From contig JAJRTW010000085.1 in the NCBI GenBank assembly GCA_024278075.1, forward strand, positions 1-33,841: DNA of 33,841 bases, in the 5' to 3' direction. Positions 5,990-33,841 of the stretch are shown here, one piece after another; position 1 is the stretch's first letter, and the number at the start of each line of letters is the position of its first letter. Under the pieces are notes generated by a model. It saw only the letters and a list, made by a program, of their open reading frames with translations, was not told the DNA's origin and did no database searches. Position numbers and translations under genes: made by a program. Source of the DNA: Bacteroidota bacterium (lineage in GTDB: Bacteria; Bacteroidota; Ignavibacteria; Kapaibacteriales; UBA2268).

Positions 5990-6858
5990 TTATTAATTAA
6001 GTTAACAATCCTTAGCCCAAATCTATATAATACCGGATAATTCATCAGGAATTTCTTTGCTATGCCCATGAGCGATTTTTTATTCCTCTCATACCGCTCT
6101 ATTTCCAATAGCTTGACACGGAATTTTTCCTTGGCTATATCAATTCTGCCGGCCGGCAGCAGCGATAAATTCTTTTCGAAGGCCATACATAAATATCTAA
6201 TAAGATCATCTGCAGGAGCCGACGACAGGCCCTTGCCGTGCAGCCTTAGGCCAGTCCCGAAAATCCCCGTATAGTAAAAATCGTACTTCGATGCCAGCCT
6301 GATCTTCAGGTCCCAGTCTTCGTAAATCTTAAATTCACTGTCGTAGCCTCCAATTTCGAAGTATATTTCTTTTCTCATCAAAAAATCGTGGGGTATCTCG
6401 CAGCTGCGAAGCAGCACATCTTCGAGAATTAATCCTTCCTTGCTCTGGTAATATTTTGACACGTTATCGATGTATTCCCCATTTCCATTTAAAAATGCCA
6501 CTTTCGAGAAAGCAATAATATCCTTGTTTTCGGACATCTTTTTTTCTTGAATCAGGTTGAATTCCTTCTCAAGTTTGCGATTGTCAAAAAATATATCGTC
6601 GCTGTCGAGGGTTGTGATGTATTCGCCGCTTGCCTGTGTGACAGCATTGTGCCTGTTTGCCGCCACGCCCAAGTTGATTTCGTTAAATATCGGAGTTACA
6701 TTAGAATGCCTCGCTGAATAATCACGGATGATGTCGGTGGAATCATCGGTCGAGCAATCGTCGGCAACAACAATTTCAATATTGGGGTAGGTCTGAGCAA
6801 GGATGCTGTCGATGCACTGCCGTAAATATTCAGCATTATTGTAATTGGCCACAATCAC
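5986..6858 (-). CDS. Family-2 glycosyltransferase (GT-A)
   Basis: VANYNNAEYLRQCIDSILAQTYPNIEIVVADDCSTDDST...ITTLDSDDIFF. GTG start; overlaps the sulfotransferase start by 4 nt. Confidence 0.9.
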   Translation of the reverse strand: MIVANYNNAEYLRQCIDSILAQTYPNIEIVVADDCSTDDSTDIIRDYSARHSNVTPIFNEINLGVAANRHNAVTQASGEYITTLDSDDIFFDNRKLEKEFNLIQEKKMSENKDIIAFSKVAFLNGNGEYIDNVSKYYQSKEGLILEDVLLRSCEIPHDFLMRKEIYFEIGGYDSEFKIYEDWDLKIRLASKYDFYYTGIFGTGLRLHGKGLSSAPADDLIRYLCMAFEKNLSLLPAGRIDIAKEKFRVKLLEIERYERNKKSLMGIAKKFLMNYPVLYRFGLRIVNLINK

Positions 6859-15152: not shown

Positions 15153-15296
15153 TTCTCGCTATTTTATTTGTAAGTTTTTTGAAAATGACAATTCTCCTAT
15201 TTTTCAGAAGGCTCTAATAATATAAAATAATTTCAAAATATTTTTTTATTCTTTATATTTGTAATATGAGGATAATAAATAATAATAATTGATTAG

Positions 15297-16910
15297 ATGA
15301 ACTCCCCAAAAATCTTATTCGTCCAGAAAGATTTTCTTTCAAATGGGTTAATTCCTTTCCTTGAATCCAAGGGATTTGAAATAATTGATAATGTTGATTC
15401 CAGCAATAAGGCTTTAAAGTCAATCAAGAAAAACCAGCCTGATATTATATTAATCGATATAAATATCAAGGGTGAAATCGATGGTATTGAAACTGCAGAC
15501 CGCATTCGAAAGGACTGGGGCATTCCGGTTGTTTTCCTTTCAAACTCTACCGGCCAAAGTTTAATCGACAGGGCGAAACAGTCGAAGCCCTACGGATTCA
15601 TAACGAAGAAATTTTCGGATGAAGAAATTGCCATTCAAATCGAATTTGCCCTGAACATACATCGTTCGGAGTTGGATAGAATTGAAAGCAACGAAGAGAT
15701 TAAGTCCGGCACAGAAATGTTTCGCAGCATTGTTAATGCGTCGCGGGATGCAATATTTTTTATCGACAGGCAGGGCGTTATATCCTTTTGGAACAATGCG
15801 GCAACAAAAGTATTCGGGTATTCCGAGAATGAAGTAATTGGTAAAGTCTTTACTGATTTAGTAGTGGAGAACAGTTATAAAAATGACTTCAGCGATGGCC
15901 TAAGGACATGGAAAGAGAAAGATGATTTCAGGATGTTCGATTCGGTGCTTGAGCTTTATGCTATAAGACAAAACGGATATGTTTTCCCTATTGAACTTGT
16001 TTTATCGCCGTTAAAGATTTGTAATGTCTGGGGCGCCTGCGGATTTGCAAAAGATGTAACGCTACGGCTGGAAACCGACGAAGAGATGCATAAACTGATC
16101 GAAGAACTACAGGTAACCAAAGACTTAACCGAACAGAACGCAAGCGAAATGATTGAACTGAACTCGAAACTGTCCGAATCCGAAGAGCACCTGCGGGAGC
16201 TGAATGTAAGCAAAGACCGCTTTTTTTCGATTATTTCCCACGACCTGCGCGGCCCTTTCCAAGGCTTGCTTGCTTATTCCGAGATTCTTTCCAATGATAC
16301 TGAAAATCTTAGCATCGACGAGATTAATGATTTTGCCAACGCCATTAATCAATCTGCTCATAGTGTGTTCAAACTTCTGGAGAACCTGCTTCACTGGTCG
16401 AGAATTCAAAGGGGCGTTATCGAATACTTCCCGCAGGACATACCGTTTAAATTAGTTGTGGACTCCAACATCGATTTATACACAACCAGGGTTGAGCAAA
16501 AGAAAGTAAAACTAATCTCCGATATTCCGAATGATCTTTGTGTTCTTGGTGATGTCAATATGCTTAATACCGTCATACGGAACTTGCTGTCGAATGCTGT
16601 GAAATTTACCACCGCAGGCGATGAAATAGGAATAACCGCTAACACAACTGATAATGGTGAAATCCTTATTTCAGTTTATGACACAGGCGTTGGTATGAGC
16701 CAGGATGTGATCGAAAAACTTTTTAAAATAGACCATCACCATTCAACACCCGGAACCGATGAAGAACAAGGATCCGGGCTTGGGCTGATTCTTTGCAAAG
16801 ACCTTGTGGAAAAAAACAAGGGCGAAATAAGCGTCGAAAGCGAGGAAGGCAAAGGCACAACCTTCACTTTTTCTATACCCAAAGGAAATACCGATAATAT
16901 TGCGCTTTGA
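15297..16910 (+). CDS. Sensor histidine kinase with N-terminal receiver-like domain (REC-PAS-HisKA-HATPase_c)
   Basis: REC-like N-terminus; PAS 'DAIFFIDRQGVISFWNNAATKVFGYSENEVIGK'; HisKA 'FFSIISHDLRGPFQGLLAYSEIL'; N/G boxes 'NLLSNAVKFT', 'DTGVGM', 'GSGLGLILCKDLVEKNKG'. Confidence 0.95.
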   Translation: MNSPKILFVQKDFLSNGLIPFLESKGFEIIDNVDSSNKALKSIKKNQPDIILIDINIKGEIDGIETADRIRKDWGIPVVFLSNSTGQSLIDRAKQSKPYGFITKKFSDEEIAIQIEFALNIHRSELDRIESNEEIKSGTEMFRSIVNASRDAIFFIDRQGVISFWNNAATKVFGYSENEVIGKVFTDLVVENSYKNDFSDGLRTWKEKDDFRMFDSVLELYAIRQNGYVFPIELVLSPLKICNVWGACGFAKDVTLRLETDEEMHKLIEELQVTKDLTEQNASEMIELNSKLSESEEHLRELNVSKDRFFSIISHDLRGPFQGLLAYSEILSNDTENLSIDEINDFANAINQSAHSVFKLLENLLHWSRIQRGVIEYFPQDIPFKLVVDSNIDLYTTRVEQKKVKLISDIPNDLCVLGDVNMLNTVIRNLLSNAVKFTTAGDEIGITANTTDNGEILISVYDTGVGMSQDVIEKLFKIDHHHSTPGTDEEQGSGLGLILCKDLVEKNKGEISVESEEGKGTTFTFSIPKGNTDNIAL

Positions 16911-17057
16911 ATTATTGAAATAAACCCTGTATGATTCCCCACACCATTATAATTTCAACCATTTCTGTATCTGATTGTAACTACTTAGGTATATAGGTGT
17001 TTAGGTAGCATAGGGCTATTGAACCCATGATTCAAATTGGAGGTTTAAGGCTAAGTA

Positions 17058-17322
17058 GGGTTTCCTCAAAAAGTAGTCGGAGAAAAAGATTTTAGTGATT
17101 ATGCTTTAAGGAGAATAATAACCCCCTAAATCCCCCTTTTTTAAGGGGGAATTTGATCAACTATTCCCCCTTAAAAAAGGGGGAAGTGAGCCAGGCGAGC
17201 AGGGGGTTGTCCTACAATCTGCAAGGTATAAGGGCATAATAAATCAATTTCCTTGCACTTTCTAATTGAATATCTTTTGTAACTACTATAATAATAAACA
17301 GTTAGTGCTTTTTGAGGGCAAT
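17058..17322 (+). mobile_element. 265-bp MITE-like element, copy A
   Basis: Near-identical to 26913-27177. Termini CCTCAAAAAG...CTTTTTGAGG; flanked by direct repeat CTAAGTA (17051-17057 and 17323-17329); internal AACCCCCT/AGGGGGTT stem enclosing two C5/G5 hairpins. Confidence 0.8.
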
Positions 17323-17409
17323 CTAAGTATTCTATCACAAATTGCATCGGATTATAATTTGCGAAACGGATATTTGAAGTTATTTTGCATTCCCAAATCG
17401 GAGAGGTGG

Positions 17410-17735
17410 TGTGAAAACTCAATAATATGTTATCGTGCCTGTCCAGGTTTATCGAGGAAATTATTTCAGTATCCAAATTCCGCATAAATACTGGCTTATA
17501 GATTCTGAAACAAGTTCAGAATGACAGTTTTCCGTTCTGACGGTTGTTACAACCGGCAAGTAGATGAAGTCAGGGGCACGGTATGCCCGGCCCTTTCACT
17601 TTAATCCCACATTGTGGGTTTAATTCCCCGTTGCTTGCGGCGATTATTAAATTCTGTTAAACATTGATACCCCGCTGCTTGCGGCGGGGTAGTTCATTTG
17701 CAACATTCGATGACAGCCTACGGAACTTTTCACAC
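17410..17735. repeat. Composite nested repeat region (GTGTGAAAA...TTTTCACACAG ends)
   Basis: Same outer and inner modules as 7009-7133, additionally interrupted by a CGGTTGTTACAACCGG-type REP (about 17539-17557) and the 97-bp element (17602-17696). Confidence 0.65.
17602..17697 (+). repeat. About 97-bp triple-hairpin dispersed repeat, copy A
   Basis: TTTAATCCCACATTGTGGGTTTAATTCCCCGTTGCTTGCGGCGATTATTAAATTCTGTTAAACATTGATACCCCGCTGCTTGCGGCGGGGTAGTTCAT; inverted copy at 26547-26644. Confidence 0.9.
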
Positions 17736-24211: not shown

Positions 24212-24230
24212 TACTCGGGGCTATTTATTC
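24201..24230. repeat. REP-like palindrome CCACGAGTTaaTACTCGGGGCTATTTATT overlapping the rsmH stop codon
   Basis: Same family as 4842-4865 and 25552-25580. Confidence 0.7.
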
Positions 24231-24307
24231 TCCCAGCGGCCAGCGATTAACTCTAAGAGTCATCCCCCTTAATCCCCCTTCAAAGGGGGAATTCATCGGA
24301 TAACAGC

Positions 24308-25462
24308 TCAAGTCCCAACCGCCTCTATTTCATCCTCTTTGAAACCGTAGTTGTCCATCCAGTATTTCTTAGTGAATCTAATGCTGCCGCTGCGCGATAT
24401 TTTGATGTCACGGTCAACTGCCTGCATATTCTCCGAATCGCTTAGGATTACCTTGAATAGCGGGTATTCGCTGCCGCCGAAGTTCAGGTCGACGATATAG
24501 CGGATCAGTGTGTTGATGGCCGATTCCACCAGTTTAATATCGGATTGTATTACTTCCTGGCGGATACGGAAATGCGTTTTCGATGCGGCATACGACCCCA
24601 TCTCCAGTTCGGTGGTCAGCGTCTGGGATAATATGGCCTTCGATACTTCGGCATTGCAATGCTTAATCAGATCTTTGTAGAGGTCCACCGAACTCGAGCG
24701 GTTGGCCTCATGCAGTTTAATGTCAATATCCGACGGCGTTACGATGACGGCATCTTCGGTCATATTGGCCAGCTCTTCGGCCAGCTTCCGGGATTCATCG
24801 AAGCTGGCGCCGCGCGTATATTGCCCCGTCAGGATCGGCATTCCGAACTTCTCCATAAAATTCACCCAGAACCGCATTCCGCCGTTCTTGAATGTAACCG
24901 GCCAGTAGCATTTGGAAAGCAGGGCGTTGCCATAAGGATTCAAATAGCCCGGCTCGTACCGCACACAGATGAACTTGCGTTCGGGAAGTTCCACTCCCTT
25001 GGGTTCGCCCTTTTTCCTGAACCGCAGATTTCCTTCGCCATCGAAGAAGAACCATTCCTGAGGTTTGGCCTGTATCTTCTTCGGCAGGAAATATTTCCTG
25101 CCGCCGGCAGTTGTTTCCCAGGTTATTTCGATTGGCTGGAACCCGAAAAGAGGAGCCTCGAGGATGTCGCGAATCACCTGATAGATGTCAAGCCCATTGA
25201 TTATCTTACTGATTTCCCTGACCTTTGCGTCGGACATTCCGTTTGGGATCAGAATATGTTCGAGCGACAGCACACCGCTTTTTCGCGACTGGATGCAGCT
25301 CCACACGTGCGGGTCATTCTTCAGGTCCCTGTATACATCTATGGATTTGCCCGTTCTCGATAGGATTTTATCCGGATTCGGGAGCATTCCGATATAGCTC
25401 ATAAAGGAATAGCGGGAATTCCTGGTGACCAGTTCGCGGGTTAGATTTCTTTTTTCAGGCAT
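24308..25462 (-). CDS. Mu-like phage portal protein (DUF935 / gp29-like)
   Basis: 'LKNDPHVWSCIQSRKSGVLSLEH', 'LEAPLFGFQPIEITWE', 'KFICVRYEPGYLNPYGNALLSKCYWPVTFKNGGMRFWVNFMEKFGMPILTGQYTRG', 'SKAILSQTLTTELEMGSYAASKTH' are typical of DUF935. Confidence 0.9.
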   Translation of the reverse strand: MPEKRNLTRELVTRNSRYSFMSYIGMLPNPDKILSRTGKSIDVYRDLKNDPHVWSCIQSRKSGVLSLEHILIPNGMSDAKVREISKIINGLDIYQVIRDILEAPLFGFQPIEITWETTAGGRKYFLPKKIQAKPQEWFFFDGEGNLRFRKKGEPKGVELPERKFICVRYEPGYLNPYGNALLSKCYWPVTFKNGGMRFWVNFMEKFGMPILTGQYTRGASFDESRKLAEELANMTEDAVIVTPSDIDIKLHEANRSSSVDLYKDLIKHCNAEVSKAILSQTLTTELEMGSYAASKTHFRIRQEVIQSDIKLVESAINTLIRYIVDLNFGGSEYPLFKVILSDSENMQAVDRDIKISRSGSIRFTKKYWMDNYGFKEDEIEAVGT

Positions 25463-25551
25463 AGTATTATTTCTTCGTATAATTAATAATTAGTTATTAG
25501 TCGTTGGTTTAGTATTGCATTGAAAGGTAAATATGACTATACATCCTTTTT

Positions 25552-25580
25552 CCACGAGTTAAAACTCATGGCTATTTATT
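25552..25580. repeat. REP-like palindrome CCACGAGTTAAAACTCATGGCTATTTATT
   Basis: Third member of the family at 4842-4865 and 24201-24230. Confidence 0.8.
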
Positions 25581-25627
25581 CTTGTGCCACCATCGTTTAT
25601 AGCATGGGATAGACTGGCAGGCACTAC

Positions 25628-26080
25628 TCATTTCGCCGCCCCGAGCAGATAGCCCGTAGCCACCCCGCCAAGAATATACGCCGGCACTTCCCACCAGGGC
25701 CGCTCCTTTTCTATTGTTTTGTATATGCTCACCTGCTCGATTGCAATCGAGTCCGGGCTATTTCTAATGGCCACGGAAAACAAATTCTCGGGGTATTGAA
25801 ATTTTGCCGAAACCGTATCCCGCCGCAGTATCGTATCAAGCAATGCAACAAACGGCCTGGTTATAATCACCGTGTCGCGCGTATGAATGATCTTAGTCTT
25901 AACTTTATTGATAATAATTGGCTTTCGGTTAATCGTTCTGATTACGGTGTCGGTAACAATCCTTTCGATTGCATAAGGCTGCTTTACTATAATCTCCTTC
26001 TCCGGCAGGACGTAAATCGCTACTATGAATCCGATTATGATGCAGGATATATATTTCCATATTGAATTCTTCTGTGTCAT
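25628..26080 (-). CDS. Small membrane protein with N-terminal TM and C-terminal glycine-rich hydrophobic segment; possible spanin/lysis accessory
   Basis: MTQKNSIWKYISCIIIGFIVAIYVLPEKEI...WWEVPAYILGGVATGYLLGAAK; lies in the phage module, overlaps the next gene by 4 nt. Confidence 0.55.
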   Translation of the reverse strand: MTQKNSIWKYISCIIIGFIVAIYVLPEKEIIVKQPYAIERIVTDTVIRTINRKPIIINKVKTKIIHTRDTVIITRPFVALLDTILRRDTVSAKFQYPENLFSVAIRNSPDSIAIEQVSIYKTIEKERPWWEVPAYILGGVATGYLLGAAK

Positions 26081-26367
26081 TTATGCTTTCCCCCAATATG
26101 GTTAATGAGCATACGCGAAAACCCGGCAATGCGGGTGCTAATCTCATCCAATCGAAATTGAATGTTAGTGTCCGACAGGTTCATCCGCTCTTCCAGTATC
26201 GCAATTCTTCTTTCATTGGCCGAATGCCTTTTCTCGTCGGCAATCTTTGCATTGAACATCTTCTCCGAGCTTTTTCTGAATTCGGATTTAATCGCCAGGT
26301 ATATTCCGGCAAGAGCCAGCACCAAAGTCAGTATCACAGCAAGCAGTCCTATTAATTCTATATTCAT
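26077..26367 (-). CDS. Small membrane/coiled-coil protein of the phage module
   Basis: MNIELIGLLAVILTLVLALAGIYLAIKSEFRKSSEKMFNAKIADEKRHSANERRIAILEERMN...; ATG at 26367 preferred over the track start at 26406. Confidence 0.55.
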   Translation of the reverse strand: MNIELIGLLAVILTLVLALAGIYLAIKSEFRKSSEKMFNAKIADEKRHSANERRIAILEERMNLSDTNIQFRLDEISTRIAGFSRMLINHIGGKHK

Positions 26368-26546
26368 ATTACCTTTTATATTAATCTTAAAATGTTCATC
26401 AGGCAAATCCCCTTATCCCCAGCCCTTCTCCCTCATGGAGAAAGGAGCTTCGATAGTCAAAATGTTTTCTTTCACCGCTCCAGTCTTGGGAGAGGTGCCC
26501 GGGATGATGGACAGTCCAACTCTTATTGCAAAATCCGGGTTGATTA

Positions 26547-26644
26547 ATGAACTACCCCGCCGCATAGCAGCGGGGATCAATGTTTAACAGAATTTAATAA
26601 TCGCCGCAAGCAGCGGGGAATTAAACCCACAATGTGGGATTAAA
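26547..26644 (-). repeat. About 97-bp triple-hairpin dispersed repeat, copy B (inverted relative to copy A)
   Basis: Reverse complement matches 17602-17697 almost base for base; overlaps the stop codon of the 83-aa ORF. Confidence 0.9.
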
Positions 26645-26891
26645 CGCCAAGAATTGAATTAATTTCTGTAAGTGTCAGGTCAACTCCAGGGAAATTCTTT
26701 TGCTTTATTCCATTGTTGTCATAGAAGAAATACCTGTCCCTGGCCAGATATTCCGTTTCTTCCTCTATGCCATTGGTTAAATCACAAATAACTATATGGT
26801 GATCAAGGTCAATATCCTTGACAATGATATCATCTGCTTTTTTGGACAGTACCATGTACCCGCCGGTTTTAGTTTTTTTGCTTAGTTTCAT
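26640..26891 (-). CDS. Hypothetical 83-aa protein
   Basis: ORF with ATG start, co-directional with the phage module; no family recognised. Confidence 0.45.
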   Translation of the reverse strand: MKLSKKTKTGGYMVLSKKADDIIVKDIDLDHHIVICDLTNGIEEETEYLARDRYFFYDNNGIKQKNFPGVDLTLTEINSILGV

Positions 26892-26912
26892 TGTTAATTC
26901 CTAATTACTTAA

Positions 26913-27177
26913 GGTTTCCTCAAAAGGTAGTTGGTGAAAAAGATTCTAATGCTTATGCTTTAAGGAGAATAACAACCCCCTGAATCCCCCTTTTTTAAGG
27001 GGGAATTTGATCAACTGTTCCCCCTTAAAAAAGGGGGAAGTGAGCCAGGCGAGCAGGGGGTTGTCCTACAATCTGCAAGGCATAAGAGCATAATAAATCC
27101 ATTTCCCTGCACTTTTAAGTTGAATATCTTTTGTAACTACTATACCAATAAACAGTTAGTGCTTTTTGAGGGCAATC
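26913..27177 (+). mobile_element. 265-bp MITE-like element, copy B
   Basis: Direct copy of 17058-17322 with scattered substitutions and the same termini. Confidence 0.8.
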
Positions 27178-27309
27178 TACTAAGCCAATTAATTAATAAT
27201 CACACGAAGTTGGTTGACCATGATCTGAAGCTACTGTTCTATTCGAAACTATCTTGTCATCCCCCTGAATCCCCCTTCTAAGGGGGAATTTGATATATTA
27301 TGCAGTGTG

Positions 27310-29415
27310 TTATATCGCCTTCTCCATCACAACTGTCACGTTAACACTTGCACTGTTCCAAGCCGTTGCGGCGGAAATATATAGCGTTTGTGCCGAAGAA
27401 GTGCCGAAGAAAGTGCCGGATAATGCGGCCATCACAACTGAATTCGCTCCAACTACTTCGGCATTTACAACTTCGCTTCCGCTGGCGGTAGTCCCAATAT
27501 CGACTCCACCGGTAACGGTTTTTCCTGCCGTTTCTTCAATCAGAATACTTGCTATCCGGTAGCCCGGCGGAACAATATCGATTAAAGCCGTATCGCCTGT
27601 AATATCATTTTTAGCAGCTTTAATACATTGGAATTTTTCATTCATAAAAGCACCGTTAACCTCCCCATGCAACTGCTTGTCCGAGGCATCCCACCATGAA
27701 TAGGGGAAAGCGTTTTCAGGCCTGTAATCAACCATGCAGCCAATTTGCTTCAATACGGAGGCATTGCTCCAGGCCGCCGGAACAGCACCGGTCGCTATAA
27801 ACTCAACGCCGGATGAATTGCCGGAAGCCCCCACATTGGTAAAATCATCTCCGGCTACGAAATTCTCTATCACATAACGTTTGCCAATTGTCAATGTGCC
27901 GGAGGTTTGGGTTGTTTGGCTGCCCCACTGGTCGGCGAATTCGATGCCTGATTGCATTGGCAGCCCGTTATTATAACAGGCCAGCACCTCTTCTTGCAAT
28001 AAAGCCCTATTCCACATTCGAATAAAGTATATTTCACCGCTAAAATAATATGCAGAGAGTTGCGATCCAAATATCAGAGTGCCTGTATTATCAATATCAT
28101 TTGCTGTATTCGTTGGGGTTCCGGCAGTGTCATCAATCCCATCTACATAGACCTTCGCCGAATTTGCCCTGTCGACACAAAACATAATATGCCTGCGGCT
28201 CCCCGTTATATCAGATTGTGACTTTACTAATATTTGTGTGCCGGATTTTGGGGATCTTAATTCAATAGTGCCATCTGTATTAATCATTATCCTATAATAT
28301 ACAGTCGATGCCTGCCGTTTGGACACTACGAATTGCAACCCGCCTGTTGTATCTGCTTCTATATACAATCCGAAACTGAAATCCCCGGTTCCTAAATTCA
28401 AATTATTATCATTCGTAACTACTATGTCATCATCAACGCCGTCAAATATATAACCGCCATTGGGCAAGCCCCAACCGGGCTTCCCGGCTTTATCATCTAA
28501 CGCCGCCTGCAAATCCGTTTGGTCCGATAGCGTGCCTGCGATATTGCCCCAGCTCGGGCTGCCGGCCGCCGCATCCTGCGAATATATCTTCCCGGTTGCC
28601 GTGTCAACATAGAGGGCTTTATATGCCCCCGGGTGTGTCTGAGTGGTTTTCAGGAATTCGGAAAACATCTTGCCTTCGAAATCAATCTTGAATACTTCTA
28701 CTAAATTCGATGCCCTGATGCACTTAATAAACCATACGTCAGTTTCGGCAGATAATGCATTTCCGACAAGGATTTTCAGGGCAATTTCGCCACCGTTGTA
28801 ATCATAAGTTTGCAGATAAGCAGCGATCTTATTGCCGCGGGAAGCAAAACCAATAAAGTTATTCTCGCCCATAACTTCAAGGCAGTAACTATTATCGTCG
28901 ATATAGTCGCCATTGAATATACCCATTATCCGGCTTTCCAGATAGGTAGTAAAATACTTTAGCTTGTCTGCCGCGGCCCAGTCGGTGCCGTCAAAATAGA
29001 GCATGTCATTGGCCGCCGCAGCCGGCAGTCCCGCCTGGATATTGCCGACCAGTACCTTCTTCTTATTGCCCGCATCGGCGGAATCCTCTATCAGGATAAT
29101 ATCGGCATTAACAGGAGCGGCCTTCTCGGTGAAAGACGAGAAGTCACTCGGCGACCGCTTTAGCTGGGCGTCGTCGGTAACATTGGCAAGAGCGATTTGC
29201 GATTTGGTTACGGCGTGGGGGTTGGAGGATGAAGCCAAATGCGATTGGATATTAGAATCGGCCGGCTCATAAGCTGCATCATGATTATGAGTGGCGTCTG
29301 ATTTGCTGTCCAAATCACTCTTCAGGTCGGTTTGGTCGACAATATTTCCGTTTATTTCGCCCCAGTTTATATTGCCGCTCAAAGGTGGAAAAAATTTAAT
29401 AGGCATATTAATCAA
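27310..29415 (-). CDS. Phage tail-fibre-like protein with LamG/concanavalin-like domain
   Basis: N-terminal 'WGEINGNIVDQTDLKSDLDSKSDATHNHDAAY', repeated 'WGNIAGTLSDQTDLQAALDDK', LamG-like 'YIFDGVDDDIVVTNDNNLNLGTGDFSFGLYIEAD...RHIMFCVDRANSAKVYVDG...SGEIYFIRMWNRAL'. Confidence 0.85.
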   Translation of the reverse strand: MINMPIKFFPPLSGNINWGEINGNIVDQTDLKSDLDSKSDATHNHDAAYEPADSNIQSHLASSSNPHAVTKSQIALANVTDDAQLKRSPSDFSSFTEKAAPVNADIILIEDSADAGNKKKVLVGNIQAGLPAAAANDMLYFDGTDWAAADKLKYFTTYLESRIMGIFNGDYIDDNSYCLEVMGENNFIGFASRGNKIAAYLQTYDYNGGEIALKILVGNALSAETDVWFIKCIRASNLVEVFKIDFEGKMFSEFLKTTQTHPGAYKALYVDTATGKIYSQDAAAGSPSWGNIAGTLSDQTDLQAALDDKAGKPGWGLPNGGYIFDGVDDDIVVTNDNNLNLGTGDFSFGLYIEADTTGGLQFVVSKRQASTVYYRIMINTDGTIELRSPKSGTQILVKSQSDITGSRRHIMFCVDRANSAKVYVDGIDDTAGTPTNTANDIDNTGTLIFGSQLSAYYFSGEIYFIRMWNRALLQEEVLACYNNGLPMQSGIEFADQWGSQTTQTSGTLTIGKRYVIENFVAGDDFTNVGASGNSSGVEFIATGAVPAAWSNASVLKQIGCMVDYRPENAFPYSWWDASDKQLHGEVNGAFMNEKFQCIKAAKNDITGDTALIDIVPPGYRIASILIEETAGKTVTGGVDIGTTASGSEVVNAEVVGANSVVMAALSGTFFGTSSAQTLYISAATAWNSASVNVTVVMEKAI

Positions 29416-29511
29416 TTGGTATATTAATAAAACATTTTCTCAAAAGTTTAGTTAAGCTGTTTGGTTGCTATTCCGACAGGAATTCAGCAGTTATAAAAAA
29501 TCGAATCGCGA

Positions 29512-29859
29512 TTATTCGTACCATAGAACTGCATCGAGTTTCCCACCGGTAATGCCGTTTGCAGTATACTTTATTTTGATGAACTTAAATGCGGGGTTTA
29601 GCAATATAAGCTCGGTATCGGTTGAATTCGAATTCGTTGCTATTCCTATAGTCATCCCAATTGTGGTATTATCTAAATCATCTGTGGCCTGAAGTTCAAT
29701 AGCTCCATTCAAGGTGCCAGTTACCGAATCCCATATAATTTGCAATGATGATGCAATAGCCTTGCTACCGAAATTGTTAATAGGATCAAGAATTATCGGA
29801 ATCCATTCGGTTACAAAATCGGAATCCATCGATTGTTGTCTAATTATTTCAGATGTCAT
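29512..29859 (-). CDS. Hypothetical phage virion-associated protein
   Basis: 115 aa, beta-rich; located between lysin and fibre genes. Confidence 0.45.
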   Translation of the reverse strand: MTSEIIRQQSMDSDFVTEWIPIILDPINNFGSKAIASSLQIIWDSVTGTLNGAIELQATDDLDNTTIGMTIGIATNSNSTDTELILLNPAFKFIKIKYTANGITGGKLDAVLWYE

Positions 29860-30460
29860 TATTTGTCTCCGTTTTTATTTCGAATCCGATAAGCCCTCTA
29901 ATAACCATTCTTGCCAGCGGATGATAAATATTACGTTTTCTGATAAACACACCCTGGCCGTCCCTTTGGGATGAATTTCTGCCGGGGCTGGTATTAAACC
30001 CAATAGTTCTTACCCAGCCGGCCTTCATTATACCGATGACTCTTTCTATATGCCCCGCAAAAGAATTCTTCTTTTTCCAAAATATCATGTCATGAATATT
30101 CGGTGTATATTTAACTTTGCGGCCCTTTGCCCGGGCATCATTGAATATTTTGTTTGCGACTCCCGTGCGGGAAATCGGGATAGATTGATTCATCATTTCC
30201 AGTGCCTTCACCGCCTGCGAAAAGCAATAGTATTGCCCTGCGGCACAATATGGAAGCCCCGCTTTCAGCCCGACCGAGGTTAAATATTTCTCTACTTCAC
30301 CGTCATTTCTTCTCGTCTTTTCATAAGTCCCGACCTGAGCCATTGCCGTATCGCGGGATGCCTCCAATAGGGTTGAATCACAATAAACAACATACTTCTG
30401 CTGAGATTTAGCACTGAAGGTTGGTAGAATCAGTAACACTATTATTAATATGGCCTTCAT
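29849..30460 (-). CDS. Secreted CHAP-like peptidoglycan hydrolase (endolysin candidate)
   Basis: N-terminal signal-like MKAILIIVLLILPTFSAKSQ; Cys-containing 'GLPYCAAGQYYCFSQAV'; His in 'SFAGHIERVIG'; 'TIGFNTSPG' resembles the GNTS motif of this family. Confidence 0.7.
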   Translation of the reverse strand: MKAILIIVLLILPTFSAKSQQKYVVYCDSTLLEASRDTAMAQVGTYEKTRRNDGEVEKYLTSVGLKAGLPYCAAGQYYCFSQAVKALEMMNQSIPISRTGVANKIFNDARAKGRKVKYTPNIHDMIFWKKKNSFAGHIERVIGIMKAGWVRTIGFNTSPGRNSSQRDGQGVFIRKRNIYHPLARMVIRGLIGFEIKTETNNDI

Positions 30461-30603
30461 TTATATCCTTGTGAATTTAATACTTTTTTGTTACTTCAAT
30501 TTTGTTCTGCCGGTTGTTAGTGTCAGCAATTTAGAAGCTGCAGTCTCAAGTCCGTTGGAAGAACAATAGGATCATTAAATACGATTTGCATTGCATAAAA
30601 CGG

Positions 30604-30924
30604 TCAGCCTGAAAATTGAGCTATATATACTCCCAGCACGGTCAGCCCAACGCAAATATGAACACCGAGGAAAATGAAGCCCAAAGTATGGGACAAACCA
30701 TTGTTGGGAAAGTCCATACGGGAATAGTCCGAATTGGTAAAATTTAATTTTGTAAAAGAATACACCGAAATGCCGGACAGGGCCAGAGCGAGAGCTTCAA
30801 TTATTATAATTAAAATCAGCGTGTTCATCTCGGCAATGGCAGGATTTAACAATAAATATCCACAACCGCCAAGGGCAAGCCATATAGCATTTCGCAATAT
30901 GAAATCATTAATCTTCTTCATCAT
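30604..30924 (-). CDS. Three-TM small membrane protein (holin candidate)
   Basis: 106 aa with three hydrophobic segments directly upstream of the lysin gene. Confidence 0.45.
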   Translation of the reverse strand: MMKKINDFILRNAIWLALGGCGYLLLNPAIAEMNTLILIIIIEALALALSGISVYSFTKLNFTNSDYSRMDFPNNGLSHTLGFIFLGVHICVGLTVLGVYIAQFSG

Positions 30925-30929
30925 GTCAC

Positions 30930-31379
30930 CTAAGGTTTATCGCTAAATCGGTTCATAAGATCGTCCGAAAAATATTTGTCCGAGGATGTTTTATTGGATA
31001 TTATCGGCGGAGGAGAGTTCGTTCCGGGGGAATGCCCCTTTAGTACAACCTTGCCTTCCTGAATATCCTTTAATAATCTTAAAGCATTTATTCTCCGCCA
31101 GACAACCGTATTCGGCATCCCGGTTTTCGAGTATTGATATTCGAACAGGTTCGCCGCTGCAAGGTCTATTGATAACTTTTTGATTAAAGGTTCGATAGTC
31201 CCGGTGAACGGCACATCGTATCTTCCGAATAAGAATCCGTCAATAACAGCATCGGCCATTGCAACTGCATGGTCCACTCTTGCAATATCCAGAACCTGGT
31301 CATCGGGGGAGCCGCTAAGCCTGTTAAGCTCGATAAAACCAACCTCCAGATAAAGGTCATTCTCGTTTGAATAAGGCAT
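30930..31379 (-). CDS. DUF1320 / Mu gp36-like protein
   Basis: 'YSNENDLYLEVGFIELNRLSG...DVARVDHAVAMADAVIDGFLFGRYDVPF'-type N-terminus and 'LSIDLAAANLFEYQY' are characteristic. Confidence 0.85.
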   Translation of the reverse strand: MPYSNENDLYLEVGFIELNRLSGSPDDQVLDIARVDHAVAMADAVIDGFLFGRYDVPFTGTIEPLIKKLSIDLAAANLFEYQYSKTGMPNTVVWRRINALRLLKDIQEGKVVLKGHSPGTNSPPPIISNKTSSDKYFSDDLMNRFSDKP

Positions 31380-31612
31380 AATAATCTTTAGTATATTTCC
31401 AAAACATTTAATTTATATTCCGGACAGGCTTGATTAAAGAAAAGGTAGTTATTTGCGACAGCCTGCCCGGAGATTATAGTTGTTGTGGCGCCCGGGACTT
31501 CCCGCCCTGATGCCAATACTGGTTTGCGAAAAATTTACATTCCCAAATCGAAATTTGGCAATGAGCTAAGCTTTTCCAATGAATAGCTGCTTTAATTCTG
31601 AAGCAGCTAAGG

Positions 31613-31957
31613 CTAAGGTACCAGGTTGATTGTAACGAACCCGGCACCTGTGCAGTTATTTATAGCCCTGCCGTTCACCTCTTCGCTCGCTATGGCCGGT
31701 TTTCCTTTTCCGGTTGCATCGGATGTGATATTATCTCCGATATTCACCGTAGTAGAAGTCTCTATTGCTATAGTGCCAAGCGAGACGACCGATGCCATCT
31801 CGCCATTCACCCAGTCAACTTCGCTAACGCCAAGTGCCTTAGAGTCCAATGCGCAAACCGAACCGAGATGAGATACAAACCGGAATGCGTTAAGGTCTTC
31901 AAGTGCCTTGACCGATATCGCCTGCACCGGGTTATATGTTTTGTCATTTACTGCCAT
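31613..31957 (-). CDS. DUF2190-like capsid decoration/cement protein
   Basis: 114 aa, Ala/Val/Gly-rich, located between major capsid and gp36 genes; 'ALDSKALGVSEVDWVNGEMASVVSLGTIAIETSTTVNIGDNITSDATGKGKPA'. Confidence 0.7.
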   Translation of the reverse strand: MAVNDKTYNPVQAISVKALEDLNAFRFVSHLGSVCALDSKALGVSEVDWVNGEMASVVSLGTIAIETSTTVNIGDNITSDATGKGKPAIASEEVNGRAINNCTGAGFVTINLVP

Positions 31958-32060
31958 TTTCTTTCCTCATTTAATTTGTTAATTAATCTTCAATTATTAT
32001 AGATTCTGAAATAAATTCAGAATGAACTGTGTCTTTGCCAAAATACAAATAAGTGTATTT

Positions 32061-32132
32061 GTAGGGGACGGTTCCAAACCGTCCCGGAAATTAATATTGA
32101 TCTGTGAGGGCAGGTTTAGAACCTGCCCCTAC
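32061..32132. repeat. REP doublet (BIME-like) with GTAG feet
   Basis: GTAG-GGGACGGTT-cca-AACCGTCCC ... GGGCAGGTT-tag-AACCTGCCC-CTAC; two stems in opposite orientation, each with a GTAG foot. Confidence 0.85.
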
Positions 32133-32172
32133 GATCAGTATTTATCATTGCAAACATACGATGTCACGAATG

Positions 32173-33117
32173 CTAATTATGATTCGTATCCGAGATCAGG
32201 TATGCGGCATCGGAGGCAACAGATTTGATCGTGTAGTTGTCCGTATTCCTCACAACCTTAATTTTGCCGCCATTCTCATAGTAAGTGTCGATTTCCGGCA
32301 TATCTTCGCGCTGGAAAGTGTAGCCATAACTCGGGTTGAATTCCGTCCGGCTGCCTTTGTCGCTCTGGTCAACATAAGCCAGGACAATATTATCACCCCA
32401 AACGTCGGTGAAAGTCGTGCCGTCGGTCGTATAAACCGACATGCCAACATGAATATTCGGAATGTCCGTTAGTTCTGAGAGTACCTTGCCGGTCACACTT
32501 GATATTACGGCATATTTGATTCTCTCCTGTATTTTGGAGTGCTTCATCAGAGCCTGGTAGGTTGCGTCGCCGATTATCATCGTATTCGGATAGCGGGCAA
32601 TCTTGTTGCGCACGGCCATGGCACCATCGCGGATCACATCGATCGGATCAGTGGCATTCGTATCATCATCAAACGCAGTCCCGGCATCGATCACGATTTT
32701 CAGGTCAGCCGCGAAATTGTTCGGATCGAGGGCCAAATCAGCAGCTTCCTTCTCTTTGCCAAGCTGAAGAATGTCCATCAATTCCTTCGTTATACGTTCC
32801 TCATATTTCAGGTAATTCGGTGATTCCTCTTCCTCGAGGTAATCGATAGCGATTTCCACATCACGTTCCTTAGTTTCGAACTCGACGAGTTGAAGGTCCG
32901 AAGGTGGTATCCTGTTTGAGTTCGCCCTAATGGCGCGTTCGGTCTCACGAATGATAAAAGCTTCCTTACCGAAAACCGGGATTTTTCCTTTAAGTTTCGA
33001 TACTTTCACATGCGGAAAAAGAAAGCGTGCTACCATCGAAGCGTTATTATACCCTTGTGCAATCGTTGTCAACACGGGGTCGACCATACGCAGTTCATCA
33101 AGCCTTGCTGTTGGCAT
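32173..33117 (-). CDS. Phage major capsid protein
   Basis: 314 aa; 'MVDPVLTTIAQGYNNASMVARFLFPHVKVSKLKGKIPVFGKEAF', 'DVIRDGAMAVRNKIARYPNTMIIGDATYQALMKHSKIQERIKYA', 'DMPEIDTYYENGGKIKVVRNTDNY'. Confidence 0.87.
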   Translation of the reverse strand: MPTARLDELRMVDPVLTTIAQGYNNASMVARFLFPHVKVSKLKGKIPVFGKEAFIIRETERAIRANSNRIPPSDLQLVEFETKERDVEIAIDYLEEEESPNYLKYEERITKELMDILQLGKEKEAADLALDPNNFAADLKIVIDAGTAFDDDTNATDPIDVIRDGAMAVRNKIARYPNTMIIGDATYQALMKHSKIQERIKYAVISSVTGKVLSELTDIPNIHVGMSVYTTDGTTFTDVWGDNIVLAYVDQSDKGSRTEFNPSYGYTFQREDMPEIDTYYENGGKIKVVRNTDNYTIKSVASDAAYLISDTNHN

Positions 33118-33179
33118 ATTATCTCCTGTTAATTATTATAAATCCGTTGATTAATATTTCAATCTTCATTTCATCTCAT

Positions 33180-33310
33180 AATCTCCCCTCTTGAGAGTCC
33201 AATCACTTGTTTCCCCTCTTGAGAGGGGATTAAGGGGTGTGTAATTCCCCATAAATTCTAATTTCGTCTCCACCTCATAATCTCCCCTCTTGAGAGGGGA
33301 TTAATGGGTA
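33180..33310. repeat. Short direct and inverted repeats TCTCCCCTCTTGAGAGGGGATTAAGGGGTG
   Basis: Three partial or complete copies between the capsid and protease genes. Confidence 0.75.
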
Positions 33311-33325
33311 TGTTCTTCTCCCATT

Positions 33326-33385
33326 CCCAAATTCTTCTTCTTTCCTCATACCCAAATTCTTCTTCTTTCCTCATACCCAAATTCA
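33326..33385. repeat. 25-bp tandem repeat CCCAAATTCTTCTTCTTTCCTCATA x2.4
   Basis: Units at 33326-33350, 33351-33375 and partial 33376-33385. Confidence 0.9.
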
Positions 33386-33542
33386 GATTTGGAAATGCTA
33401 TTTTCAACCAAAGCTGTGCTTTGAATAACAAACAATTTCAATCCATATTCCCCACCATTCGACTGAGTTTATCCTAAGCGAAACCGAGGGATTCGGGAAG
33501 ACAATTTCTCCTCATCACAAGGATGGGCGCAGGGGTGGTCCC

Positions 33543-33710
33543 CTACCGCCCAACAATCCCCTGCACCAAACACACAGCCTCCTCATAAGATAATCCCGGA
33601 GTCAGGCTCTGCATATCGAGGGCCTTCTCATGCAGTTTCAGCCTGTCCTCAGACACATTCCGGTTTGCGAATTCATGCGATTGGCCTATCTCACCGGCAG
33701 TTTCCCTGCT
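33543..33710 (-). pseudogene. C-terminal fragment of a Mu-like protease/scaffold-like protein, truncated by an IS
   Basis: Minus-strand translation ...SRETAGEIGQSHEFANRNVSEDRLKLHEKALDMQSLTPGLSYEEAVCLVQGIVGR*; 'LHEKAL...LSYEEAV' resembles the C-terminus of Mu I-type proteins. Directly upstream of the capsid gene, as expected for a protease/scaffold. Not in the ORF track. Confidence 0.55.
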
Positions 33711-33841
33711 AGTGTATCATCCCTTAGAAAGAGTAATTAATTATATGGTTAATGGTTTTCCAGTATAAGTCCACTGAAATGGCTTTGCCCTCGTCTTATT
33801 ATATGTTTTTATATATTCCATTAATTGATCAGATAACTGCT
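33711..33841 (-). mobile_element. End of an IS630-family insertion sequence (continues beyond window)
   Basis: Contains the C-terminus of an IS630-type transposase; junction at about 33711 next to a TA dinucleotide (IS630 family targets TA). Confidence 0.65.
33741..33841 (-). CDS. IS630-family transposase, C-terminal fragment
   Basis: Minus-strand translation QLSDQLMEYIKTYNKTRAKPFQWTYTGKPLTI*; 'YN...AKPFxWTYTGKPL' is the hallmark C-terminus of IS630-family transposases. Missed by the ORF track because it is cut by the window edge. Confidence 0.85.
   Translation of the reverse strand, partial: QLSDQLMEYIKTYNKTRAKPFQWTYTGKPLTI

Follow-up and report, generated by a model that had tools for sequence, protein, structure and literature searches.

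What kind of genetic element is left when phage capsid and lysis genes are kept together with a portal gene in last place, and with no terminase or tail gene beside them? This question is raised by a 33,841-nucleotide stretch of DNA from a Bacteroidota bacterium, which we call the window. The original prediction for this DNA offered two readings: an old, rearranged prophage remnant, or a retained capsid/lysis module under selection. It asked for a search for terminase genes, for dN/dS values of the structural genes, and for a synteny comparison. So far only a few lineages are known to have GTAs (gene transfer agents), which are hard to recognise because of their resemblance to prophage remnants. 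Judging from its genes and their relatives, we think that the window probably holds one of several loci that encode a domesticated particle system of phage origin in one Kapabacteria family, most likely a GTA.

The window is the entire contig C39 of a 3.74-Mb draft genome in 275 contigs, G000. The host family, as used here, comprises 54 genomes in 27 genera, which are MAGs labelled Kapabacteria or Ignavibacteria.

Gene content of the cluster in the window

The cluster fills the right third of the window. All of its genes lie on the minus strand, and the host's mraZ and rsmH are convergent with them. All ORFs except the protease are open. ORF calls and profile searches confirmed the predicted coordinates and gene order, which runs protease fragment, major capsid protein (MCP), cement, Gp36, 3-TM, CHAP, p115, LamG fibre, small ORF, Rz-like, p150 and portal. 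The last gene is indeed a Mu-type portal of 384 aa (24308–25462; PF06074, E 2.5e-96; dN/dS 0.06 in relatives), and the window as a whole contains no terminase or tail genes, as had been predicted.

The head genes lie at the other end. The protease/scaffold gene is represented by a C-terminal remnant cut at the contig edge (33561–33677), which aligns at 49% identity with the final ~40 residues of intact relatives (protease residues 313–351, E 9e-6); its N-terminal part is absent from the whole G000 assembly. The MCP (32173–33117) has an HK97 fold and is of the Phage_cap_E type (PF03864, E 1e-9), which corrects its earlier typing; its best PDB match is 3bjq (profile E 1.7e-45, Foldseek E 1e-23). 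It is followed by a capsid cement/decoration protein (31613–31957; phrog_673, E 1e-23, with PF09956 just under the cut-off) and by the head-tail adaptor Gp36/DUF1320 (30930–31379; PF07030, E 1e-18).

Several genes point to lysis. The 3-TM protein (30604–30924) is a candidate holin that occupies the same position in 44 family genomes and precedes CHAP in the sister prophages described below. The CHAP endolysin (29849–30460; PF05257, E 2e-5, and a phrog endolysin match) carries a signal peptide, and its Cys and His are retained in at least 90% of 42 homologues. An Rz-like spanin candidate (26077–26406) has an N-terminal TM segment and a coiled coil; its match to phrog_1026 is weak (E 0.003), and its family, F11, occurs in several genera. 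The membrane-anchored p150 (25628–26080), a putative spanin-like lysis protein, is kept immediately before the portal in 42 family genomes and has the same place, after CHAP, in the sister prophages.

Among the remaining genes, p115 (29512–29859) encodes a small beta-sandwich structural protein (AlphaFold2 model pLDDT 91) whose best viral matches are phage proteins, and we infer that it is a head decoration or a fibre base. The LamG fibre or spike of 701 aa (27310–29415; PF13385, E 4e-14) varies between genera, with fibre-like genes at the equivalent place in relatives. An ORF of 83 aa (26640–26891), to which we assign no role, gave no family matches in profile searches and was not seen in relatives.

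The original prediction also drew attention to wide gaps filled with host-type repeats. Both are real in G000. Gaps of 143–233 bp were found at four of the six junctions measured. A dispersed 270-bp repeat within one gap (26910–27179) is 93% identical to a copy at 17056–17325, and 26572–26644 is an inverted 97% copy of 17600–17672. In relatives, however, the medians at the same junctions are -10 to 14 bp, and thus the wide, repeat-bearing gaps are a feature of G000 and not of the element. At the contig edge, the end of a transposase-like ORF (33743–33841, minus strand) looked IS630-like by eye; Pfam and NCBIfam profile searches gave no support for that label. As the protease is truncated, the G000 copy of the cluster may be inactive. 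Elsewhere in the window, two tandem repeat arrays with a 21-bp period, TTTGATGATGATTTGTGTCCT and GGCAATGAATGGTGAATCTGC, occupy positions 2265–2680.

Distribution and gene order across the family

A portal search of 119 related genomes gave matches in 49 of the 53 same-family genomes other than G000, while in the order's other families most matches were of the long, prophage-like kind. The element-type portal is present in 47 of the 54 genomes and in 25 of the 27 genera, the MCP in 44 genomes, and all nine core cluster families together in 31. Twenty wider loci from the family displayed the identical order MCP-cement-Gp36-3TM-CHAP-p115-fibre-p150-portal, with an intact protease ahead of the MCP wherever the contig reached that far, and with differing host genes at the flanks. 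Profiles made from these 20 clusters found an equivalent cluster in further loci. The portal-last order was kept in every family locus examined, and because it is family-wide, local rearrangement is ruled out as its source. Scanning 84,980 species with an MCP alignment gave 32 loci, of which nearly all come from bins assigned to Kapabacteria, Ignavibacteria or the Bacteroidetes-Chlorobi group; one record labelled Desulfobulbaceae we take to be G046 of the host family.

The cluster has been lost, damaged or dispersed in some lineages. One genome (G002) is without the element, and the portal ORF is broken in three others (G050, G024 and G008). Gp36 is missing in genera g14 and g17, which keep the rest of the cluster. 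Genus g24 has protease-MCP-cement on one contig and Gp36-to-portal on another, with every gene open, and in G015 the protease is detached from the cluster. That the parts remain intact even when scattered is best accounted for if they serve the host in a common function.

Inheritance, selection and origin

In trees built with FastTree, the 44 element portals formed one clade with a support of 0.998, apart from 12 homologues in prophages and 18 in viral contigs. The 42 element copies of the large terminase, TerL, also formed one clade, apart from seven homologues (support 1.0), as did the element MCPs (support 0.72). The element portals are 335–394 aa long and are missing the C-terminal extension of phage portals, whose prophage and viral-contig versions measure 420–520 aa (mostly 460–520).

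The element also tracks its hosts. Mantel correlations with the host were 0.81 for a capsid concatenate and 0.72 for TerL; with one genome per genus they were 0.71 (P 0.001) and 0.48 (P 0.006). The UvrB, capsid-concatenate and TerL trees agree, and multi-member genera are monophyletic save g4 (capsid, MCP) and g17 (portal). Element dS is close to UvrB dS in several pairs (about 0.4 for G038–G024, about 0.6 for G053–G031). The exception is G037–G023 (L171 and L066), in which element dS is 0.07–0.36 compared with 1.18 for UvrB; this suggests a recent exchange of the locus between species.

Median dN/dS values ranged from 0.04 to 0.18, far below 1. They were 0.04 for the MCP, 0.05 for p115, 0.06 for both the portal and the 3-TM protein, 0.085 for TerL, 0.10 for Gp36, 0.12 for cement, 0.13 for both CHAP and the protease, and 0.175 for p150; the median for host UvrB was 0.024. 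The conserved order, the low dN/dS and the host-congruent trees support the second of the two predicted readings, a retained module under selection. The cluster is inherited from a common ancestor by nearly every family member and is kept under selection, and we regard it as close to certain that the element is domesticated and selected.

The other predicted reading, a rearranged prophage remnant decaying in the genome, would account for the truncated protease, the transposase-like end and the repeats in the gaps of G000, and for the damaged genes in a few relatives. It is contradicted by the portal-last order and open genes that are alike across 25 genera, by dN/dS values far below 1 and by gene trees that follow the host. 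We consider it refuted for the family, and give it very little probability.

The likely source of the element is illustrated by Mu-like, non-contractile sister prophages in several family genomes (for instance G018, L140/L141/L178, and G032, L138/L139/L179). These carry TerS, TerL, a long portal, MuF and a neck protein on one strand. The other strand carries protease, cement/MCP, Gp36, Gp37, Rz, 3-TM, CHAP, p150, fibre, tail genes and a PhageMin_Tail tape measure of 1910 aa. Their protease, Gp36, Rz, 3-TM, CHAP, p150, portal and TerL are homologous to those of the element; they differ from it in this two-strand head-lysis-tail layout, in the tape measure and in their patchy distribution. Where a viral contig includes further genes besides the portal, it likewise has a protease/Gp36 arm divergent from a long portal. 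These layouts suggest that the element, compared with the prophage type, kept the head and lysis genes, with the portal at the end and TerL separated. The sister prophages thus allow a before-and-after comparison, in which head, motor and lysis genes would have been kept, TerL and portal moved, and MuF and tail lost. A Mu-like prophage should have terminase, portal and MuF together, a tail and a transposase. The element does not fit this description: MuF was found in 19 of 54 genomes and not in G000, and the cluster contains neither transposition nor tail genes.

A solitary terminase

A terminase does exist, outside the stretch on which the prediction was made. The sole Terminase_6N match in G000 is a lone gene on contig C114 with host genes on either side. 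TerL matches were found in 51 of the 54 family genomes, prophage-type copies counted in. The neighbours of TerL are host genes that are common within genera and not between them. In G047, a 2.66-Mb chromosome in one contig, TerL lies at 0.95 Mb and the capsid cluster at 2.64 Mb; as the two loci are more than 0.9 Mb apart, their joint packaging is implausible. In G031, TerL immediately precedes the protease. No TerS was identified for the element.

The Walker A motif, the Walker B-like motif and the nuclease residues of TerL are conserved in 42 sequences, and by these motifs the large terminase appears catalytically intact. This bears on a third reading, that of a domesticated capsid with a use other than transfer: it might serve altruistic lysis, dispose of DNA, or act as a particle for killing or storage. 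Such uses would fit the strongly kept lysis cassette, the lack of a recognisable delivery tail and the dispensability of the adaptor Gp36 in g14 and g17. However, the portal is strongly conserved, and so is TerL, whose motor and nuclease motifs are intact; this implies DNA packaging, and we give a non-transfer use a small chance.

In G005 a lone terminase (L123, 16414–17838) lies ~6 kb from rsmH-mraZ, and in G000 it is the capsid cluster that adjoins rsmH. The nearness of both to rsmH is possibly a trace of a common ancestral position.

Tail genes and the satellite reading

Most known GTAs have tails. We searched the draft genomes with five profiles, covering four known tail-gene families and MuF: these detected contractile sheath in three of the 54 genomes, Baseplate_J in one, the sister-prophage tail protein in 13, MuF in 19 and the PhageMin_Tail tape measure in 16. 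The carriers are largely prophage-bearing genomes, and in five genomes (G000, G005, G007, G016 and G019) none of the five profiles gave a match. A contractile tail or baseplate encoded elsewhere was rejected on the negative profiles in most genomes, and sister-prophage tail or MuF genes were rejected as hidden partners on their restriction to a minority of genomes, largely prophage carriers. The particle would be either tailless or equipped with a short or unrecognised tail.

Heads without tails are also a property of cf-PICI satellites, which have head and packaging genes but no tail genes and are mobile, single-locus and integrase-bearing. A capsid-forming satellite of this kind would make its own heads and borrow tails from helper phages. 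The element resembles cf-PICIs in that its head, portal and terminase genes are not accompanied by tail genes, and some family genomes do contain tailed sister prophages. It differs in being vertical and dispersed. No integrase, replication or regulatory phage genes were found alongside the cluster, whose flanks are host genes, and thus the element would spread vertically. Instead of a single, patchily distributed integrase island, we found an element that is near-universal and host-congruent, with its terminase more than 0.9 Mb away in the complete genome. Moreover, helper tail genes were undetectable in most genomes. For these reasons the satellite reading seems improbable to us.

Comparison with known GTAs and a model

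GTAs have caudoviricete-derived particle proteins, are endogenised, often in several loci, and are inherited vertically with host co-diversification (PMC9662315). The element shows all three features: it has an HK97 MCP, a portal, TerL and Gp36; its cluster and lone TerL lie apart and are split further in g24; and it shows the Mantel correlations of 0.81 and 0.72, genus monophyly with few exceptions, and matching dS. GTAs are further expected to package mostly random host DNA, to package their own genome incompletely, to deliver the packaged DNA to other cells and to form a caudovirion-like head-tail particle (PMC9662315). For the last of these, the head genes are present, with tail genes at the counts given above (sheath 3/54, Baseplate_J 1/54, sister tail gene 13/54, tape measure 16/54).

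Among known systems, FpGTA of Faecalibacterium comes closest: it has a ~10-kb operon of TerL, portal, scaffold and MCP plus unlinked genes, is near-ubiquitous in its group and forms particles without identifiable tails (PMC12946183). The Kapabacteria element shares the near-ubiquity and the unlinked genes, and its particle would apparently likewise have no recognisable tail. It differs in belonging to another phylum, in its solitary TerL and in having its lysis genes inside the capsid cluster, and no second baseplate/tail operon was found for it. RcGTA (Rhodogtaviriformidae) is caudoviricete-derived, multi-locus, vertically inherited and selected (PMC9662315). The element is like RcGTA in all these respects, but RcGTA has a full head-tail cluster, whereas the element has no recognised tail and comes from phages with a Mu-type portal. 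The proteins of alphaproteobacterial GTAs are reported to have a reduced carbon content; this amino-acid cost signature was not seen in the element proteins, which is a further difference from RcGTA. A literature search returned no GTA report for Kapabacteria or Ignavibacteria, and as far as searches show this is the first GTA candidate in the Bacteroidota/FCB group.

We propose a model in which the protease/scaffold would direct assembly of the HK97-fold capsid and its cement around the Mu-type portal. The terminase, encoded elsewhere on the chromosome, may then fill the capsid with a headful of mostly host DNA. Judging by their families, the holin-like, CHAP and spanin-like proteins would lyse the producer, and the LamG spikes may aid binding of the particle to cells. 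As no tail genes were found, we speculate that the DNA could be delivered through a tail that is very short or of an unrecognised type, or that cells could take up particles or DNA after their release. We find it likely that host DNA is packaged and transferred by the element. Packaging and transfer without a tail is a more tentative proposal, which we hold at somewhat less than an even chance. The same caution applies to the idea of a tail-shedding GTA that consists of capsid, portal, solitary terminase and lysis genes and whose DNA might be delivered by a minimal spike or released for uptake.

If our interpretation is correct, this would be another independent GTA domestication, family-wide and vertical, in uncultured bacteria of the Bacteroidota group. 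If the element is functional without a conventional tail, it would change the view of what a DNA-transferring particle minimally needs.

A promoter array upstream of terminase and protease

Both TerL and the protease are preceded by an array of tandem AAAN4TTT motifs with a period of 11 bp. Arrays with at least 11 of 12 matches were found in 35 of 82 TerL/protease regions compared with 7 of 135 GC-matched intergenic controls (Fisher 2e-11, a P value that is overstated because relatives are not independent), and the spacing of the array is specific. The array represents a shared, uncommon promoter class that separates the TerL and protease loci from most protein genes. In G000, an array with 12/12 matches (L072, 211–232, on contig C114) lies 93 bp ahead of the lone terminase.

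The same array is found ahead of rRNA-leader-like repeats in 373 kb sampled from G035, and we therefore rejected a dedicated operator linking the TerL and capsid promoters. One possibility is that the array belongs to strong promoters as an UP-like element. A perfect copy also occurs within the window (15224–15297), before a REC-PAS-histidine kinase gene (15297–16910); chance or a regulatory link are both possible.

The G035 repeat combines the A-tract array with a TTGACATATC-like box, a TAnnTTTG-like box and a boxA-like TGTTCTTTG leader. At least four copies are present in the 373 kb (L282, 8682; L283, 1530; L296, 1561; L297, 11218), and they resemble rRNA promoter/leader copies. In L297, a group I intron-like match that scores below the gathering score lies inside the 23S rRNA gene (6375–6570).
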